Below are positions 1,080 through 26,100 of a stretch of 31,895 bases of DNA, one piece after another. The notes under the pieces are model-generated. The model did not search any database. It saw only the letters and a program-made list of their open reading frames with translations, and was not told the DNA's origin. The number at the start of each line of letters is the position of its first letter. Position 1 is the first letter of the stretch. Location of the stretch: positions 1 through 31,895 of the IMG/VR virus record IMGVR_UViG_3300028920_000722; one strand, 5' to 3'. This stretch comes from a virus. The position numbers and the translations under genes are program-made.

Positions 1080-1928
1080 TTATCCTTCTATGATCTTCCT
1101 GATCCTATCTTCTTCAAGCCTTACTGCACCGCAATTAAGCTCATAGTAGATCTGCCAAGAGTATGATAGATCTTCTCTCTCATCAGTTCTTACTATTGGT
1201 TGCGCGCTCATTGCCATACATAAAGCATACTTCTGATACACAAGCCCTATCAGGCCTGATTGCTCAGATAGTCTTGTTGATACAATCCAATTAAAGCCTA
1301 AGAAGGTGCTTACTTCGCCCTTTACAAGCGCTCTTATTGAATTATAATCAGCTGAACCTATCTCTGTTACATCCAGCAATGAGGATAAGCTCTGTGTATC
1401 TATTACAGCATACCTATCTTCCATCTCTACATCATTATCATCTAATGCCTTCTTCCATGATAGAATGCTGGTTAGAGTGATATTAGCTGCTGATGCGAGG
1501 ATTGTGGTTGTGGTAGGTGCTGTGGTAGAGCCTGTTTCACCGCTCTTTGTGCTGGTTGATACTGCTGCTGCAATTATTACATCATCAATCTTGCGACCAA
1601 GAGATCTGGCTGCCGCAATAGTGTAAGCGCTTCTTGGATCTGATATGGATCTTAGCTCATCACCACGATCAAGTAGTCTTGCATCATGGTAATCAAGCAT
1701 AGTACCCATACGCCTTGCTAATGCTGGATCGTTGTTCGGTGTTGCTACATTTCTGCCACCCTTCGTTTCCATAGACCATTCACCGATCTGGTCTTGAAAG
1801 AAGGTCTTACCTCTTACATTTGGCTTCATATATACAGTATTAAGTAGCTTACTGTATTTCTGTTGAGCCAACTGCATGATGTTCCGGCCATACGCTTGCG
1901 CATATATTTCATTCTGTGTATCAGCCAT
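1080..1928 (-). CDS. major capsid protein
   Basis: A 282-residue protein immediately downstream of the scaffold gene, in the classic portal-scaffold-capsid order. The N-terminal part has features of small HK97-fold capsid proteins of podovirus-like phages: a long helical start (YAQAYGRNIMQLAQQKYS), a KTFFQDQIGEWSMETK segment, and an RRMGTMLDYHDARLLDRGDE segment, which I associate with the Phage_capsid_2 group. The middle carries a T/A-rich linker near residue 130-145, then a VIDTQSLSSLLDV block. The C-terminus is charged. SD AAGGGG lies 6-10 nt before ATG 1928. It would form the icosahedral shell. The family call is from memory of the pattern; the capsid role is well supported by context. Confidence 0.85.
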   Translation of the reverse strand: MADTQNEIYAQAYGRNIMQLAQQKYSKLLNTVYMKPNVRGKTFFQDQIGEWSMETKGGRNVATPNNDPALARRMGTMLDYHDARLLDRGDELRSISDPRSAYTIAAARSLGRKIDDVIIAAAVSTSTKSGETGSTTAPTTTTILASAANITLTSILSWKKALDDNDVEMEDRYAVIDTQSLSSLLDVTEIGSADYNSIRALVKGEVSTFLGFNWIVSTRLSEQSGLIGLVYQKYALCMAMSAQPIVRTDEREDLSYSWQIYYELNCGAVRLEEDRIRKIIEG

Positions 1929-3027: not shown

Positions 3028-3285
3028 TTAAGACTCCTTTTGTTTTGCCATTGCGACTATATGCTCTGGCTCATGGTTTAGGAAGGTCTTGATGGTAGCT
3101 ACTACCTCACGCCTTCCTGCATTTATTAAGATCCTATCTTTACTCTGAGGATCAAAGATACTCTCGTACCAGCCACAGGCCTGCTCAAGAAACTTCAGGG
3201 TTTCCTCGCCTGATGGGCCACCGAAAGTAGATTTTATATGTCCTTGTAATGACTTTACCTGTCTTATATCAGTTAAGTTTATCAT
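3028..3285 (-). CDS. Bbp19-like small virion-operon protein
   Basis: 85 residues, overlapping the portal stop by ATGA and ending directly at the SD of the scaffold gene. The pattern FGGPSGEETLKFLEQACG, then a short spacer, then INAGRREVVATIKTFL, resembles the Bbp19-type proteins found next to podovirus portal genes, where a GR-x-V helix is conserved. No catalytic motif is seen. Context points to a head-assembly or ejection accessory role; the precise function in that family is not known to me. The similarity is recalled, not computed. Confidence 0.65.
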   Translation of the reverse strand: MINLTDIRQVKSLQGHIKSTFGGPSGEETLKFLEQACGWYESIFDPQSKDRILINAGRREVVATIKTFLNHEPEHIVAMAKQKES

Positions 3286-4970
3286 TGTGCAAACCTCGCC
3301 TTGCTCTTAGTAGCAGCCTCAGCAAGATCCTTCTCACCAGCTGCTACATCTTTAGCCACCTTAGCGCTACTCTCCATTATCTGTGCTTGCTGGGCCTGAG
3401 CAGCTGCTTCAGCCCTTGCTTCTCTTATATCAGATACTTCCTGATCATCACGCAATACCTTAACAGGCGCGCCAAGTATATCCCATGCTTCATCTATGGC
3501 TGTATCAGGATTTACCTTATCAAGGGCCTCTGGTGTAAACTGTGCCATCTGGCCTACTAAGCTAAGGCCATTCATTAGGCTTGATAGCTCACTTCTCTTT
3601 TGTGCCTGTGCAAGCTGAGATACAAAGTCTATATCAAAGGTAGGATTGGTTATTAAAGCATCAGGTACAGGTGGTAGCTTGCCCCTGCGCTCTAATATGC
3701 CTATTGTCCTTATGATAATAGGATTAAGTACAGCTCCCATGTATCTGCCTACAGCCGGGCCAAGCATAGCCATCTTCTCATTGATGCGCTCTTGTACCTC
3801 TGGGTTTTGCATCTGCTTAGTTATGTTCTCAAAGGTAAGGAATATATCATTGTATAATAAACTCTTTATCTGCTGCGTATAATACTCAACAGCGCTCATA
3901 CCTACCTTTGGATCACCAAAGTTAGCAAAGCTAAATATATCCTTAGCGCTGTCCATAACATTCTTCTTGTAATAGTTTAAGGCTCTGGGGTTAGAATTAA
4001 ATGGCATTATAAAAGCATTGTGAGGTAGCGCTATTGGCGGATCAGTCTGCTTCATCATGGCCCTTAGATTAGTCTTGGCTATGGCATTTAAGAGCCTTGC
4101 AAATGGTAGAGCCTTCATGGCAGGTGAAAAGCCCCATGGAATGAATGGGCGCTTGTCAAATCTATGTGTCATGGCCGGCATTTCAAAGTAGCCGCCTTCT
4201 TCCATTATCTTCTCATTCTCAACATCTATCCATGTAGCCTCAATAGGCATGTTGGATTTATCTGTCTTGGTAACATCTCTGGCTTCTCTGTGTGCTATGT
4301 AGAGTAGAAACTTATGCTTCTTGTTCTGATCTTGGCCTGATAGCTCCTCACGCTGTACCTGAGTAAGGGCATCTTCGCCCCATCTGCTTGCAGCCTGAAA
4401 TGCAGTATATTCAAACTCTATGTAATATGCTACTACACGCCCTCTGGCATCATCTACGATACATACCTGAGTAAGCGGCAATGAGTAGAAGCGCACTACA
4501 TCTTGAAGATCATCTTCTTCTAAGAGTACGCTTGTGCCATATACGCCTGATGATTTATAGTTAGGGAATGATTGCTCATAGAAGTTGCTGGTATTAAGCG
4601 TATGATATACCTCATCAGCTACATCATCCAAGAAGTCAGTTACTTCCTTGTTGTCCACTAAGCGCGGATCTTTGCTTCTTAGCCTGAACCATTTGGCTGT
4701 AGGCGGGGTAAGATAGTTCATAAAGCCTGATGCAAGTATATCAGGTGCTTCTAATGTGGTAGAGTCATAAAGCTTATTAGTATCAAGCTCAGTACCGGGA
4801 TAGTATGCCTTCTGTGAGTCCGGGCTTTCAATGTAGAAATACTCATGCAGGTCTTGCCAATAGCTTGCAAAGTTCTCTCTCTGGCCCAACAGTTCCTTAA
4901 ACCTGCGGATCTTATCCTTTGCCCTCTCAGGCTGTATCTTAGGCGGCTTTACCTTTTCAGTTATCTGCAT
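3282..4970 (-). CDS. portal protein (head-to-tail connector)
   Basis: 562 residues, the usual size of T7-type head-to-tail connecting proteins. The N-terminal half carries the family hallmarks: a helical start, YFYIESPDSQ, then LYDSTTLEAPDILASGFMNY followed by LTPPTAKWFRLR. The centre contains FYSLPLTQVCI and the YIEFEYTAFQAA region, and later RPFIPWGFSPA and LRAMMKQTDPPIALP. The last ~70 residues are an Ala/Gln/Lys-rich coiled coil. It forms the dodecameric ring at the packaging vertex through which DNA enters and leaves. It is coupled to genes on both sides (TAATG with the acetyltransferase, ATGA with the Bbp19-like gene). SD GGGAG precedes ATG 4970. Confidence 0.92.
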   Translation of the reverse strand: MQITEKVKPPKIQPERAKDKIRRFKELLGQRENFASYWQDLHEYFYIESPDSQKAYYPGTELDTNKLYDSTTLEAPDILASGFMNYLTPPTAKWFRLRSKDPRLVDNKEVTDFLDDVADEVYHTLNTSNFYEQSFPNYKSSGVYGTSVLLEEDDLQDVVRFYSLPLTQVCIVDDARGRVVAYYIEFEYTAFQAASRWGEDALTQVQREELSGQDQNKKHKFLLYIAHREARDVTKTDKSNMPIEATWIDVENEKIMEEGGYFEMPAMTHRFDKRPFIPWGFSPAMKALPFARLLNAIAKTNLRAMMKQTDPPIALPHNAFIMPFNSNPRALNYYKKNVMDSAKDIFSFANFGDPKVGMSAVEYYTQQIKSLLYNDIFLTFENITKQMQNPEVQERINEKMAMLGPAVGRYMGAVLNPIIIRTIGILERRGKLPPVPDALITNPTFDIDFVSQLAQAQKRSELSSLMNGLSLVGQMAQFTPEALDKVNPDTAIDEAWDILGAPVKVLRDDQEVSDIREARAEAAAQAQQAQIMESSAKVAKDVAAGEKDLAEAATKSKARFAQ

Positions 4971-5743: not shown

Positions 5744-7087
5744 TTATCTTATGCCGGCTGTAGCAAATAGATTGTCCTCTTTGCTGTATGCCGGCTGTAT
5801 TGTTTGGAATTGCTCCATTTGTTGATAGTTTATCTCACCTATCATACTTACTGCCATAATAAGCGCATCAGCTAAGTTAGGTGATTTAATGCCATCCTTG
5901 CGCATCTTCTCTTTGGATATTAGTCTTTTGCGCTGATAATGGTCATACTCATATCTTAGAGTACATAGCTCCCGGATAGTTTCCTCATCTGTTATTACAA
6001 TATGGCCTGCTGTTACCATCTCTTTTAGCTTATAAACATTGGCTGTTCTGGGATTGGCATACTCTTTATTATCACGATAGTTGATCTGTGGGTTTCTAAA
6101 GCCTTCAAACATAACTAAGCCTCTGCCCTTATTGAGTGTATCTAATGGCCCAGCGCCAATGCCATCCTCATCTATCTTAGCCTTATTAACATTCTGTGCA
6201 TTAGTTGTGGATAATATCCTGCCTGTGGTATAGTTTAAATCCATGTGATCCCATTGATCAGCAAATATCATCTCCCAATGTAATGCTCCCATCTGCTGTA
6301 CTATTACAGCTGCGCATCTATCATCACCATATCTGGCTATATCAAAGCCTGCTAAGCGTAGCCCATAGTTTTCTCTTAGCGTATGCTTATGCTTGTATGT
6401 ATCTTTAAGCTCCCGGTAAGTAAATACACAATCCTCTAATTGCAGCAATGGCTCACCTTGCCATATATGCAGGTAATCCTTCATACTCTTGGCCTTACAC
6501 TCAGCAGCTTCATTCTTTAGTGCATCAGTACAGAATGGGTTCTCATCATAGTTTATGTGGATATGCAGGCAATCCTTGCGTCCCACTAAGAACTCAAACA
6601 CAGGATCATGCTCTAAGTGTCTGTTCATGGTAAAGTATATCTTGGCTTTCTGTTTTCTTATGGTAGGAATAAGCACATCTAAGGTCTGCTTAGTTATTGC
6701 TTGAGCTTCATCTATCCATAGTACATCAACACCTTCCATACCCTGGATATTAAATACTCCCTGCTCCCGGAAGCCCCTAAAGTTTATTGTGCTGCCTGTT
6801 ACCTTATGCACTATCTTAGTACTGAATACATCAAATGCTAAGTTGTGTGTCCTGATTAGATCTACAAGGAGTGAGTAAACGCTCTCATTGATACTGTTCT
6901 GTGTTTCTCTACCGCATACCATTCTAAGATGCTTCTGCTCTGCTAAATACAAAAAGAGCCGGGCTACTGCCTGACTCTTTCCACCACCTCTACCACCTTC
7001 TGCTAAGAAATATCTGTACTCATTTATCTTGAGTATCAATGCCATTAGTTTTTCAGGCACAGATAATATCTTAGGTAGTTGTATCAT
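5744..7087 (-). CDS. terL: terminase large subunit
   Basis: 447 residues, normal for a TerL. The packaging ATPase domain has a Walker A GGRGGGKS at about residues 31-38 and Walker B VDVLWIDEA at about 120-128, with a coupling segment around IYFTMNR. The C-terminal RNase-H-like nuclease shows AGFDIARYGDD (first acidic site), AKIDEDGIGAG (second) and SPNLADALIMA (third, D near the end). The order and motif style fit the Terminase_3/PBSX-type group. It cuts concatemeric DNA and pumps it through the portal. The start is ATG 7087, with SD AAAGGA 9 nt upstream, overlapping the small-subunit candidate by 17 nt. Confidence 0.95.
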   Translation of the reverse strand: MIQLPKILSVPEKLMALILKINEYRYFLAEGGRGGGKSQAVARLFLYLAEQKHLRMVCGRETQNSINESVYSLLVDLIRTHNLAFDVFSTKIVHKVTGSTINFRGFREQGVFNIQGMEGVDVLWIDEAQAITKQTLDVLIPTIRKQKAKIYFTMNRHLEHDPVFEFLVGRKDCLHIHINYDENPFCTDALKNEAAECKAKSMKDYLHIWQGEPLLQLEDCVFTYRELKDTYKHKHTLRENYGLRLAGFDIARYGDDRCAAVIVQQMGALHWEMIFADQWDHMDLNYTTGRILSTTNAQNVNKAKIDEDGIGAGPLDTLNKGRGLVMFEGFRNPQINYRDNKEYANPRTANVYKLKEMVTAGHIVITDEETIRELCTLRYEYDHYQRKRLISKEKMRKDGIKSPNLADALIMAVSMIGEINYQQMEQFQTIQPAYSKEDNLFATAGIR

Positions 7088-7355
7088 GCATACGATCCTT
7101 TATTGGTTGTGGTATATCCTCACCAAGATCTAATTCCAATGGCTTATGCTCAACAGTAATCATAGTCATCTTGGTATATTTTATCTCACCTTCTACTACT
7201 TGAGGAATATCCTTCTTAGTTAATTCTAAAGCAATCTTTATCTTATTGCCCTGACTAAACTTATGAAAGTTATCATCAAGGTATTTCCAGCACTTCTGTA
7301 TAAACAGACTCTTAATTGCTTTGTCATTCATACATTGCTTCTTAGCGATATTCAT
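7071..7355 (-). CDS. terminase small subunit candidate
   Basis: 94 residues directly upstream of, and overlapping, the large terminase gene, which is the usual place for the DNA-recognition subunit. The middle segment KIKIALELTKKDIPQVVEGE resembles the helical stretch K-x-x-LALEL-x-x-K-x-x-P seen in short phage proteins annotated as small terminases. A full helix-turn-helix domain is not obvious, so it may be a reduced TerS or a TerL-associated factor. The start ATG 7355 has SD GGAG 10 nt upstream; an internal ATG at codon 9 is an alternative. Confidence 0.5.
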   Translation of the reverse strand: MNIAKKQCMNDKAIKSLFIQKCWKYLDDNFHKFSQGNKIKIALELTKKDIPQVVEGEIKYTKMTMITVEHKPLELDLGEDIPQPIKDRMHDTTT

Positions 7356-7524: not shown

Positions 7525-7535
7525 CTTGCTCCTAT

Positions 7536-7571
7536 AAAAGAAAACGAGTAAGGCGGTGTACACCTCACTCG
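7536..7571 (-). terminator. intrinsic terminator in the P1 leader
   Basis: Read on the minus strand, 7571-7545 folds into an 11-bp stem (CGAGTGAGGTG / CGCCTTACTCG, two G-T wobbles) with loop TACAC, followed at once by TTTTCTTTT (7544-7536). This is a textbook Rho-independent terminator. It ends transcripts from the upstream small-gene region. It also lies only about 36 nt downstream of the predicted P1 start and just ahead of the SD of the virion operon, so virion transcription must read through it. Confidence 0.78.
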
Positions 7572-7586
7572 CTTATAAAAAGTATA

Positions 7587-7608
7587 TAGATAGGGAGCTA
7601 CCCTTCTA
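7587..7608 (-). promoter_or_regulatory. 5'-terminal leader hairpin of P1 transcript
   Basis: TAGA-AGGG / CCCT-(A)-TCTA forms an 8-bp stem with a single bulged A and loop TAGCT. It begins at the predicted transcription start of P1. A 5'-terminal hairpin can stabilise mRNA or, next to a terminator, act as a cis antitermination element. The pairing is visible; the role is inferred. Confidence 0.45.
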
Positions 7609-7613
7609 CCTTA

Positions 7614-7642
7614 AACATACACTATATATAGTATATTGTCAA
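7614..7642 (-). promoter_or_regulatory. sigma-70 promoter P1 with overlapping palindrome
   Basis: Perfect -35 TTGACA (7642-7637), 17-bp spacer, and -10 TATGTT (7619-7614). An A-rich block (GAAAAAATATC) lies directly upstream of the -35. The spacer contains the palindrome ACTATATATAGT (7621-7632), well placed to be a repressor operator. It points into the virion operon through the leader hairpin and terminator. The upstream block plus -35 recurs almost unchanged at P2. Confidence 0.7.
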
Positions 7643-7661: not shown

Positions 7662-7763
7662 CTATTTTTTTCTTGGCTGCCTTGAAGTTCCTCTGTTACC
7701 TTTTCCACCACCTGAGCCATCTAAGCGCCTTTTGCCACCACATGCTCCTTTTCCTCTTGCCAT
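7662..7763 (-). CDS. 33-residue Gly/Arg/Lys-rich peptide
   Basis: ATG 7763 follows SD AAGGAG and opens a 33-codon frame ending in TAG. It begins MARGKGACGGKRR and ends NRGTSRQPRKK. It is highly basic and glycine-rich and could bind nucleic acid. It overlaps the 3' 68 nt of the preceding gene in another frame, so one of the two may be spurious there. It is the last gene before P1. I recognise no family. Confidence 0.5.
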   Translation of the reverse strand: MARGKGACGGKRRLDGSGGGKGNRGTSRQPRKK

Positions 7764-7875
7764 GATCCTTCTCCTTCTGAGGCCTGATCTTCTTGCCCCG
7801 GTTCTGCGGAGCTTTAGGCGTGATGATGCCTTGCTCCCGCTTGCTTGTACCTAATGATCTATCCCATTTCTTCAC
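7696..7875 (-). CDS. 59-residue basic protein (GTG start)
   Basis: Start GTG 7875 is proposed because GTGA overlaps the upstream stop and SD GAGGTGG lies 5 nt before it. The protein is Lys/Arg-rich, starting KKWDRSLGTSKREQG, with a Trp-rich tail (WWQKALRWLRWWKR) that runs antiparallel in frame to the Gly-rich 33-mer. The tail may be an out-of-frame shadow, in which case the real gene is shorter or has shifted. Function unknown. Confidence 0.42.
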   Translation of the reverse strand: MKKWDRSLGTSKREQGIITPKAPQNRGKKIRPQKEKDHGKRKRSMWWQKALRWLRWWKR

Positions 7876-8117
7876 TTTGACCACCTCTTTGTTATTTGGT
7901 CAATTGCTTGATTGAAGCCTTCTTTAGTATGACTTCTCCAATCATAATCATTTGGATATTCTATTTTTAACTCTTTCTTCTCAGGCAAACTCTCTAAGAA
8001 TAGCTTGGTGATGGCTTGGGCAAGATGCTTTCTATCTCCATCATCTATTGTTAAGTCATTACCCTCTATATCTTTTGTAGCACCATCTATTATCCTACTC
8101 AATTCCTCTTGTATCAT
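7872..8117 (-). CDS. small paralogous protein A (MIQEEL family)
   Basis: 81 residues from ATG 8117, which forms ATGA with the upstream stop and has SD AAAGGTGG. It begins MIQEELSRIID, contains LAQAITKLFLESL in the middle, and ends FNQAIDQITKRWSK. The next upstream gene shares all three blocks, so the two are tandem duplicates. The fold is probably all-helical. I recognise no characterised family; the position among tiny genes suggests an accessory or host-takeover role. Confidence 0.65.
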   Translation of the reverse strand: MIQEELSRIIDGATKDIEGNDLTIDDGDRKHLAQAITKLFLESLPEKKELKIEYPNDYDWRSHTKEGFNQAIDQITKRWSK

Positions 8118-8353
8118 CTCAACCACCTTTGTGTTATTTGGTCTAAATAATTATTTATAATCTTATCTTCTTGGGTTTCGTATCCTTCGCCCTGACCAAT
8201 TTTAAAATGTTTTGCTCTGCCTAAACTCTCTACGAATAGCTTGGTGATGGCTTGGGCTAAATCCCTTTTTATATCCCATAATGTATTTTGGTCATCTTCT
8301 ACTACCCTTAATAACGATTTTGATAGTATCTTATCTAATTCCTCTTGTATCAT
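8114..8353 (-). CDS. small paralogous protein B (MIQEEL family)
   Basis: 79 residues. It shares MIQEEL at the N-terminus, LAQAITKLFVESL near residue 35, and LDQITQRWLR at the C-terminus with the adjacent gene, which it overlaps by ATGA. The initiation region is a 20-bp leader (AAGGATTAGG before ATG) that recurs exactly upstream of two other genes nearby. Helical and charged; function unknown. High similarity and head-to-tail order indicate recent tandem duplication. Confidence 0.65.
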   Translation of the reverse strand: MIQEELDKILSKSLLRVVEDDQNTLWDIKRDLAQAITKLFVESLGRAKHFKIGQGEGYETQEDKIINNYLDQITQRWLR

Positions 8354-8370
8354 AACCTAATCCTTTCAGG
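8351..8370 (-). repeat. repeated translation-initiation leader, copy 1 of 3
   Basis: A 20-bp unit reading CCTGAAAGGATTAGGTTATG on the minus strand. It recurs at 8607-8626 (identical) and 9006-9024 (19 of its bases). Each copy supplies the SD and start codon of a different small gene. Such reuse points to duplication of gene starts or recombination at these sites. Confidence 0.75.
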
Positions 8371-8373
8371 GAG

Positions 8374-8393
8374 CCACCTTTGTGTTATTTGGT
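8374..8393 (-). pseudogene. C-terminal fossil of a third MIQEEL-family copy
   Basis: These 20 bases are identical to 8123-8142, where they encode the QITQRW end of paralogue B. Here they sit between genes, yet the same frame reads NFNQITQRWLPERIRL and ends at a TGA overlapping the ATG of paralogue B, just as the intact copies overlap. The N-terminal half of such a copy (MIQEELREI) is found at 9008. The simplest reading is a copy split by insertion or recombination. Confidence 0.5.
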
Positions 8394-8609
8394 TAAAGTT
8401 TTCCCTATATATTGTAACTGTGATAATCTTTTCCAAGTAATTTCAGGATAGCAGGGCATAATCCATTTCCCACTATTTGATGAATTACAATATTCCCTTA
8501 CTACCCAAGTAAAAGATTTAGGAATTGTGTTTTTTGATGGTTTTCTATTTTCTTTTATTCTGATAATTCCCTCATCTTCACATAAATAATAAAAATAATA
8601 CGGCTTCAT
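8385..8609 (-). CDS. unknown 74-residue protein
   Basis: Begins MKPYYFYYLCEDEGIIRIKE and includes a SFTWVVREYCNSSNSG segment; rich in Tyr, Lys and Trp and probably a small beta-rich fold. It uses the repeated leader with AAGGATTAGG before ATG 8609. Its 3' end runs into the fossil paralogue segment, where its TAA stop lies. I do not recognise a family. It may be a newcomer that replaced the middle of an older gene. Confidence 0.55.
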   Translation of the reverse strand: MKPYYFYYLCEDEGIIRIKENRKPSKNTIPKSFTWVVREYCNSSNSGKWIMPCYPEITWKRLSQLQYIGKTLTK

Positions 8610-8626
8610 AACCTAATCCTTTCAGG
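8607..8626 (-). repeat. repeated translation-initiation leader, copy 2 of 3
   Basis: Identical to 8351-8370. It provides SD and ATG for the 74-residue MKPYYF gene, which is otherwise unrelated to the MIQEEL family. Confidence 0.75.
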
Positions 8627-8630
8627 GGGT

Positions 8631-8756
8631 TTATGGTGTTATCCAAATAACAGTTCCAACTATAAACATTATCCCTATCAATATCTGCTTCCACTTAGGT
8701 TCATTTGATGGTATAAGGCTTGCAACAAATATTAAAACTAATCCAATATATTTCAT
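8631..8756 (-). CDS. 41-residue membrane peptide
   Basis: ATG 8756 follows a strong SD (GGGGG, 5 nt spacing) and opens 41 codons ending in TAA. It has two hydrophobic stretches, YIGLVLIFVASLI and ILIGIMFIVGTVIWI, separated by a charged turn (PSNEPKWKQ). This is the shape of a two-helix membrane hairpin. It neighbours another small membrane protein. A membrane-acting role such as superinfection exclusion is possible but not shown. Confidence 0.55.
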   Translation of the reverse strand: MKYIGLVLIFVASLIPSNEPKWKQILIGIMFIVGTVIWITP

Positions 8757-8786
8757 ATCTTCCCCCTTTCTGCTATTTGTTTTACC

Positions 8787-9008
8787 TTATCCTTCATACC
8801 AATCTCCTTCCCATTTAAAGCATAGTGGTAACCAACTAAAAAATATAGCTAGTGCTAGAAATGGTAACGACATTAAATCCCTACCAATCCTTATACAAGC
8901 AATTCCAAACAATAAACTACTTAGAAAACTTAATATGCTAAAAACTCTATATTGATATAAATTAAGGCGTGTAAATTCCTTTATCTCCCTCAATTCCTCT
9001 TGTATCAT
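8787..9008 (-). CDS. 73-residue two-helix membrane protein with MIQEEL start
   Basis: The first residues, MIQEELREI, match the paralogous family nearby, but the remainder differs. There are two transmembrane segments (about residues 23-41, FSILSFLSSLLFGIACIRI, and 45-64, LMSLPFLALAIFFSWLPLCF), and a charged Trp-rich end. It uses the repeated 20-bp leader at ATG 9008. It looks like the start of an old family copy fused to a membrane segment. Function unknown. Confidence 0.6.
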   Translation of the reverse strand: MIQEELREIKEFTRLNLYQYRVFSILSFLSSLLFGIACIRIGRDLMSLPFLALAIFFSWLPLCFKWEGDWYEG

Positions 9009-9024
9009 AACCTAATCCTTTCAG
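9006..9024 (-). repeat. repeated translation-initiation leader, copy 3 of 3
   Basis: Nineteen bases identical to the other two leaders. It directs initiation of the membrane protein whose N-terminus is MIQEEL-like, directly downstream of the SDR gene that ends the metabolic island. Confidence 0.72.
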
Positions 9025-25808: not shown

Positions 25809-25837
25809 AACTTACTACTTTTTCAGGATCTTGTCAA
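25809..25837 (-). promoter_or_regulatory. sigma-70 promoter P2
   Basis: Perfect -35 TTGACA (25837-25832), 17-bp spacer, weaker -10 TAAGTT (25814-25809). The upstream block GAAAAAATATC is the same as at P1. The -35 overlaps the stop of the preceding gene. It would start transcripts near 25802, running into the basic protein, the O-like gene and the island. Confidence 0.6.
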
Positions 25838-26100
25838 GATATTTTTTCACCAACTACAAGTTTTTTTGGAAGCCACTCATAATAGTAAAGATAGTAAAAT
25901 CCTCTACCATACTTATCAGTAAACTTCCGACGAGCTACCGGCTCTTTGCCGGCTATTGGCATAAGTTTATTGCCAAATGCCACAGGCCCGCCGCTCTCAG
26001 CAGTTTTCTGTGGCACAGCAATATATTGCTTATCACCAAACTTTTTACCTAACTTGTAGCCGGGTATTAAAGTCTTAGCGCGATAAGTTTTAGAAGCCAT
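25834..26100 (-). CDS. unknown 88-residue protein
   Basis: Starts MASKTYRAKTLIPGYKLGKKFG and carries VARRKFTDKYGRGFYYLYYYEWLP near the C-terminus. The protein is basic and aromatic, probably a small beta-rich nucleic-acid or partner-binding fold. SD GGAG is 6 nt upstream of ATG 26100. Its last codons double as the -35 region of promoter P2. I do not recognise a family. It sits in the early, replication-type gene block. Confidence 0.6.
   Translation of the reverse strand: MASKTYRAKTLIPGYKLGKKFGDKQYIAVPQKTAESGGPVAFGNKLMPIAGKEPVARRKFTDKYGRGFYYLYYYEWLPKKLVVGEKIS

Follow-up and report, generated by a model that had tools for sequence, protein, structure and literature searches.

The virion operon of the virus record analysed here appears to lie behind a gate, in which a sigma-70-type promoter leads into an intrinsic terminator that immediately precedes the first late gene. 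The record, IMG/VR virus record IMGVR_UViG_3300028920_000722, was analysed over its full 31,895 bases (positions 1 to 31,895, hereafter the window). Judged from the sequence, the locus is a terminator-gated late promoter, consisting of a promoter and then a terminator, after which no further promoter precedes the late genes, and terminator gating of the late operon is well supported by this arrangement and its conservation. On balance, and with some reserve, we favour a gate resembling the PR′–tR′ pair of phage λ, with a hairpin at the 5′ end of the transcript as the likely recognition element.

We propose that the promoter would give rise to an RNA of approximately 65–70 nt, which carries the 5′ hairpin (GGGUAGCUCCC) and ends at the terminator. 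As the terminator stands directly before the Shine–Dalgarno (SD) sequence of the packaging operon, the late genes would be expressed only upon read-through, which is presumably regulated during infection. The 5′ hairpin may recruit the antiterminating agent, as a boxB/nut-like protein site, or may itself be that agent, as a put-like RNA; in either case it would act as a recognition signal, not as one half of a two-state RNA switch.

The late operon and its promoter

The promoter and leader are located on the minus strand, as are the likely genes of the window, with a series of small genes on one side and the packaging operon on the other (Table 1). The record has no end repeats and part of the genome is missing from the window. 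The order of the operon is p60, p94, TerL, a 110-aa gene, a GNAT-like gene, portal, a scaffold-like gene and capsid, and the family matches for TerL, portal and capsid are in agreement with the first-pass annotation, which had considered this to be the virion operon. The fold predicted for p60 is of low confidence (mean pLDDT 65). No transcription factor was detected by protein-family search among the genes around the promoter, and the 33-aa mini-ORF had no match among annotated phages. Inspection by eye of translations only indicated a long run of radical-SAM-like, glycosyltransferase-like and methyltransferase-like genes between 9037 and 25137, which includes two split transketolase-like genes in what is a small phage genome. 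At 7872–9024 there are several small paralogues, p84, p79 and neighbouring genes, and direct repeats surround their start regions.

Table 1. Features of the promoter, leader and late operon in the window
Feature	Position	Strand	Remarks
Basic mini-ORF MARGKGACGGKRRLDGSGGGKGNRGTSRQPRKK, 33 aa, Gly/Arg/Lys-rich	7662..7763	-	just upstream of promoter
-35 element TTGACA, 6/6	7637..7642	-	TTGAC[AT] at matching place in 8 clade members
12-bp palindrome ACTATATATAGT in promoter spacer	7621..7632		perfect; between -35 and -10
-10 element TATGTT, 4/6 only	7614..7619	-	weak
5′ hairpin AGAAGGGTAGCTCCCTATCT	7588..7607	-	-5.7 kcal/mol; at about +1 of predicted transcript
Unpaired 13-nt linker between hairpins	7575..7587	-	no boxA-like motif in window
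Intrinsic terminator stem-loop	7542..7574	-	14 pairs including G-U; -19.5 kcal/mol
U-tract TTTTCTTTT	7536..7544	-	first bases also paired in stem
SD AGGAG of p60	7529..7533	-	2 nt past U-tract
p60 start codon ATG	7524	-	downstream of SD AGGAG
p60, first late-operon gene, 60 aa	7342..7524	-	kept in 7 relatives; no assigned function
p94, second late-operon gene	7071..7355	-	no assigned function
Terminase large subunit TerL (Terminase_3)	5744..7087	-	family match
Portal (Head-tail_con)	3282..4970	-	family match
Major capsid protein (Phage_capsid_2)	1080..1928	-	family match

A perfect -35 element, a 17-bp spacer containing a palindrome and a hairpin at the 5′ end of the transcript had all been described in the first-pass annotation, and each was recovered at the positions given in Table 1, with transcription predicted to start near 7607. 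The core of the 5′ hairpin, GGGTAGCTCCC, lies at 7603–7593 and has a 5-nt loop, UAGCU; its recurrent form is written GGGUAGCUCCC. The hairpin has the size of a boxB and is situated upstream of the terminator. A boxA-like CTCTTTG is present in the linkers of the related contigs L012, L025 and L007 and is absent from that of the window. The leader as a whole folds with z = -3.2, and none of 200 shuffles was as stable.

The terminator and the virion-operon SD that follows it were likewise as first described, except that the stem comprises 14 pairs including G–U, not 11. Its base lies some 33 nt past the predicted start, roughly in line with the 36 nt after the promoter given earlier. Since the gap of 2 nt between the end of the U-tract and the SD leaves no room for a promoter, any transcript that reaches p60 must pass the terminator. 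Transcripts from this promoter or from further upstream would all meet it, and expression of the late genes thus requires read-through.

Promoter-like sites in the window are found at chance frequency (51 observed, 46.6 expected), so that it is the combination of elements, and their conservation, that supports the promoter call. We defined an event as a promoter matching at least 10 of 12 positions, followed no more than 100 nt later by a stem of at least 10 pairs and a U-tract. The window contains one such event and none arose in 200 dinucleotide shuffles; a search of both strands of related contigs, 1.32 Mb in all, recovered it at this locus only. Hence the hexamers alone prove nothing, but their combination with the terminator does. 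A repeat of the promoter at 25825–25848 was discarded, because the match is confined to the -35 side and no leader lies downstream.

Conservation of the layout among relatives

Approximately 150 loci were gathered through portal and TerL alignments. When used alone as a query TerL found no relatives in viral contigs, whereas the portal query together with the alignments did retrieve them; two MAG contigs from a search of genome contigs were not trusted as hosts. The TerL tree places the window in an 11-row group (100/100 support) with L004, L006, L007, L009, L012, L013, L014, L025, L003 and L010. The order promoter, 5′ hairpin, terminator, SD and first late gene is kept in nine of these 11 TerL-nearest contigs, that is, all except L003 and L010, notwithstanding their diverged sequence, and in all nine the 5′ hairpin and the terminator fold next to each other. 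A clear promoter is seen in the terminator-bearing members other than L007. The hairpin takes the form GGGUNRCNCCC in seven of the nine and a diverged form in the other two. It tracks the terminator, as both are missing in L003 and L010, which have other leaders: by eye, L003 has in place of the terminator layout a hairpin whose loop contains the SD, and the promoter of L010 leaves almost no leader. At L003:980–1030 the promoter is followed by an 11-bp hairpin with an SD-like GGGGG in the loop and the start codon in the 3′ arm, ahead of a TerS-like gene. Just outside the clade, L018 has a promoter and terminator without the 5′ hairpin, and this pair directly precedes a homologue of the 33-aa mini-ORF of the window.

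When seven leaders were aligned, 94% pairing was seen over hairpin and terminator, compared with 79% in shuffles and 44–64% when the structure was slid along the alignment, and covariation over the whole structure was 0.527 as against 0.190. The outer stem of the terminator was 96% paired, with two-sided changes at all eight pairs. Pairing kept above both the shuffled and the slid controls, in conjunction with these two-sided changes, shows that the predicted terminator is under selection at this place. The earlier proposal that the late genes are held off until read-through is allowed is partly supported, with regard to the need for read-through and to a layout kept across the clade, but not as to a particular mechanism.

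Comparison with known systems and alternative explanations

In lambdoid phages the late genes wait for read-through of terminator tR′, downstream of promoter PR′, under the control of antiterminator Q (PMC6606751). Virion or lysis genes are similarly terminator-gated in the systems of AlpA from Pseudomonas (PMC7969949) and GafZ from the Caulobacter gene transfer agent (GTA) (PMC11150451). The window resembles these systems in having a promoter and then an intrinsic terminator ahead of virion genes. However, Q, AlpA and GafZ all load on DNA between the -35 and -10 elements (PMC6606751, PMC7969949, PMC11150451), whereas the element conserved with the terminator in the window clade is an RNA hairpin, not a DNA element in the spacer. 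Unlike the lambdoid system, moreover, no Q-type gene was found in 15 related records, mostly fragments, in which the NusG, Phage_antitermQ and Antiterm families were all without a match. PF06323 had no match in the related records either, but the control for this family likewise found nothing, so that its absence is uninformative. An antitermination protein, one of three routes suggested earlier, accordingly has no candidate from the NusG or lambda-type Q families in those records.

An antiterminator of the same kind as Q, AlpA and GafZ might bind the spacer palindrome and ride with polymerase through the terminator, and the palindrome is perfect and lies where their sites are found. Its distribution among relatives does not support it as the DNA site of the gate. 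Palindromes similar to ACTATATATAGT occur in L014 and in the terminator-less L003, and are absent from the terminator-bearing L004, L006, L012, L013 and L025. Given also that the Pfam families of Q are unmatched in the 15 mostly fragmentary records, with the reservation that the PF06323 control was blank, we judge such a DNA-loaded protein to be quite improbable here.

The put RNA of phage HK022 on its own renders polymerase terminator-resistant, through the β′ zinc-binding domain. The put RNAs are approximately 70 nt long and form two hairpins where the transcript begins; their targets are early genes and remote terminators (PMC9378689). The window transcript similarly has two hairpins at its 5′ end just past the promoter, but unlike in put the second of these is the terminator itself. 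When compared with annotated phages by blastn, the window leader gave only two chance-level matches, neither of them to a lambdoid phage. The suggestion of a cis-acting RNA of the put kind therefore keeps its analogy of layout, with no similarity found to any annotated phage record.

Leader switching, the remaining earlier suggestion, is not supported by the structures, since no helix competes with the 5′ arm of the terminator and hairpin and terminator coexist in the nine members. Pairing of the 5′ hairpin or linker with the terminator arm was rejected (own-arm duplex -7.9, compared with -9.0 for mismatched pairs). A different type of switch could operate within the terminator, the apex of which (GGUG) has two mutually exclusive partners in seven relatives, a near CACC and a far CRYC. 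In a leader that responds to a factor or ligand, binding might shift the apex between the two, and this would relate the window to int-alpA-like leaders (see below) that end in a U-tract or in a pseudoknot near the SD. In the relatives' alignment the near partner is 92.9% paired and almost invariant and the far partner 96% paired with changes; the inner form, in which GGUG pairs with the near CACC to give an inner hairpin and a 5-nt bulge, is weaker by 3.9–8.3 kcal/mol. The U-tract after P1 in the int-alpA consensus, and a pseudoknot that in related leaders is far above shuffles, also favour a switch. On the other hand, the lower 8-pair stem and the U-tract are intact in both apex states, so that the effect on termination may be small, the far-partner covariation was equalled in 58 of 500 shuffles, and the window leader has neither the P1 stem and GAAA junction nor the pseudoknot of those leaders. 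We consider a switch improbable, even though the alternative apex pairings themselves are conserved.

The layout might also be explained without any regulator, if the terminator is a constitutive attenuator that cuts late transcription by a fixed fraction, or if an abundant 65–70-nt RNA is its by-product, with the 5′ hairpin protecting the RNA end. The terminator may indeed leak constitutively, because the -10 element matches at four of six positions only and the U-tract of the window is interrupted by a C; that of L012 consists of five U residues. The unmatched antiterminator families in the 15 mostly fragmentary records agree with this explanation, and the position of the hairpin at about +1 would suit a stabilising role. 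Mere stability would not need a conserved UAGCU loop, however, nor does attenuation readily account for the joint loss of terminator and hairpin in L003 and L010 or for the fact that unrelated leaders carry the same hairpin, and we regard a constitutive attenuator as rather unlikely. Within the λ-like gate, the 5′ hairpin is favoured as the recognition element because it tracks the terminator where the palindrome does not, no competing leader helix was found and no antiterminator family was matched in the 15 mostly fragmentary records. Its role need not be antitermination, since some leaders that carry the hairpin seem to exert their effect on translation, and the promoter and terminator of L018, which lack it, also count against this reading.

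Recurrence of the hairpin in other phage leaders

We searched viral contigs for AGGGTAGCTCCCT followed 30–60 nt later by six T residues. The pattern was present in 20 contigs, compared with one when the loop was scrambled. In the unrelated phage L171 a TTGACA promoter, the hairpin and a terminator precede TerS-like and TerL genes; two further unrelated phages have the same hairpin and terminator, L157 before TerS- and TerL-like genes and L160 in the interval from TerL to a lambda-type portal. The matches in L162, L164/L172, L165/L166 and L168 are probably due to chance (coding sequence or no context), as perhaps is that in L155. In L158 and L170 a U-tract comes after the stem that encloses the GGGUAGCUCCC hairpin. 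A promoter-anchored version of the hairpin pattern was found in 89 contigs, of which a rough uniform-base estimate attributes about 12 to chance. Among leaders without a three-way junction, the pair closing GGG/CCC is kept in 33 of 35 clusters and occurs as all four Watson–Crick types, which fixes the register of the hairpin.

A large subset of the leaders follows a fixed plan, P1-UA-GGGUAGCUCCC-GAAA-P3, in which P1 covaries; the 3′ ends of these three-way-junction leaders align poorly, and the genes downstream, endonuclease-like in some phages, include HNH-, AP2-type and integrase genes. In a set of 71 distinct leaders, complementarity between the next hairpin's loop and downstream sequence extended over a mean of 4.56 nt, against 2.40 nt in shuffles (largest shuffle mean 3.04); it is, by prediction, a pseudoknot that often adjoins the SD. 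The L196 leader matches the Rfam family int-alpA (RF02996) above the gathering score. Using a query derived from L219 with a small alteration in the junction, we found E. coli leaders, among which the prophage leader L270 matches int-alpA with 45.1 bits and lies in a late region where lysis and packaging genes flank it. GGGUAGCUCCC corresponds to the P2 hairpin of the int-alpA-matching leaders in L196 and in this E. coli prophage late region. At L270:3990–4085 the int-alpA loop CTCGTC is complementary to a GACGAG that overlaps the SD side of the next gene. Members from INPHARED that are near TerL or portal belong to Aeromonas, Vibrio and Shewanella phages, and by eye the Shewanella Y11 leader has an extended GAAGGGTAGCTCCCTAT hairpin, like that of the window, within a three-way junction.

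A second type of leader with the same hairpin was seen in L176, L178, L181–L183, L191, L200, L215, L217, L235 and L264. Its P3 loop pairs downstream (CCAATT/AATTGG, CCGATT/AATCGG, CTAACT/AGTTAG), and it mostly precedes a zinc-ribbon-like gene family and is outside Rfam at the thresholds applied.

The window leader shares with int-alpA a 5′ hairpin with a 5-nt loop, and the int-alpA consensus, too, ends in a U-tract. In contrast to int-alpA, which forms a P1-UA-P2-GAAA-P3 three-way junction, and to the related leaders that add a pseudoknot between loop and SD side, the window has only the P2-like hairpin. It had no match to the int-alpA covariance model, either at the gathering score or at E values up to 5, and was rejected as a member of the family.

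Significance

To our knowledge, little is known of late-gene gating outside the lambdoid phages. A terminator-gated late operon is of a known kind; the RNA element found here is of wider interest, and the recurrent phage leader-RNA theme that contains it is barely catalogued. A literature search on the hairpin sequence yielded nothing relevant. The shared hairpin may reflect either common descent or independent evolution towards the same binder. Tentatively, and as a possibility to which we give less than even weight, GGGUAGCUCCC at the 5′ ends of phage transcripts might be an RNA signal of general use, recognised by a conserved component of the bacterial cell (polymerase, ribosome or nuclease). 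Unrelated phages would have attached it to different outputs, either a terminator before virion genes or a three-way junction with an SD-side pseudoknot before mobile-type and late genes; int-alpA would then be the only branch to have been catalogued.

The uncharacterised int-alpA RNA gains a context from these comparisons, in leaders that are promoter-proximal and lie close to genes of the packaging, portal and endonuclease types, and the SD-side pseudoknot of the related leaders is a feature absent from the Rfam model. Laboratory strains offer a way to examine the role of the hairpin, which is also present in leaders of culturable phages and of E. coli prophages (L270 and L271). For the viruses themselves, the findings suggest that an entire uncultured clade has a gate of which the conserved part is RNA.
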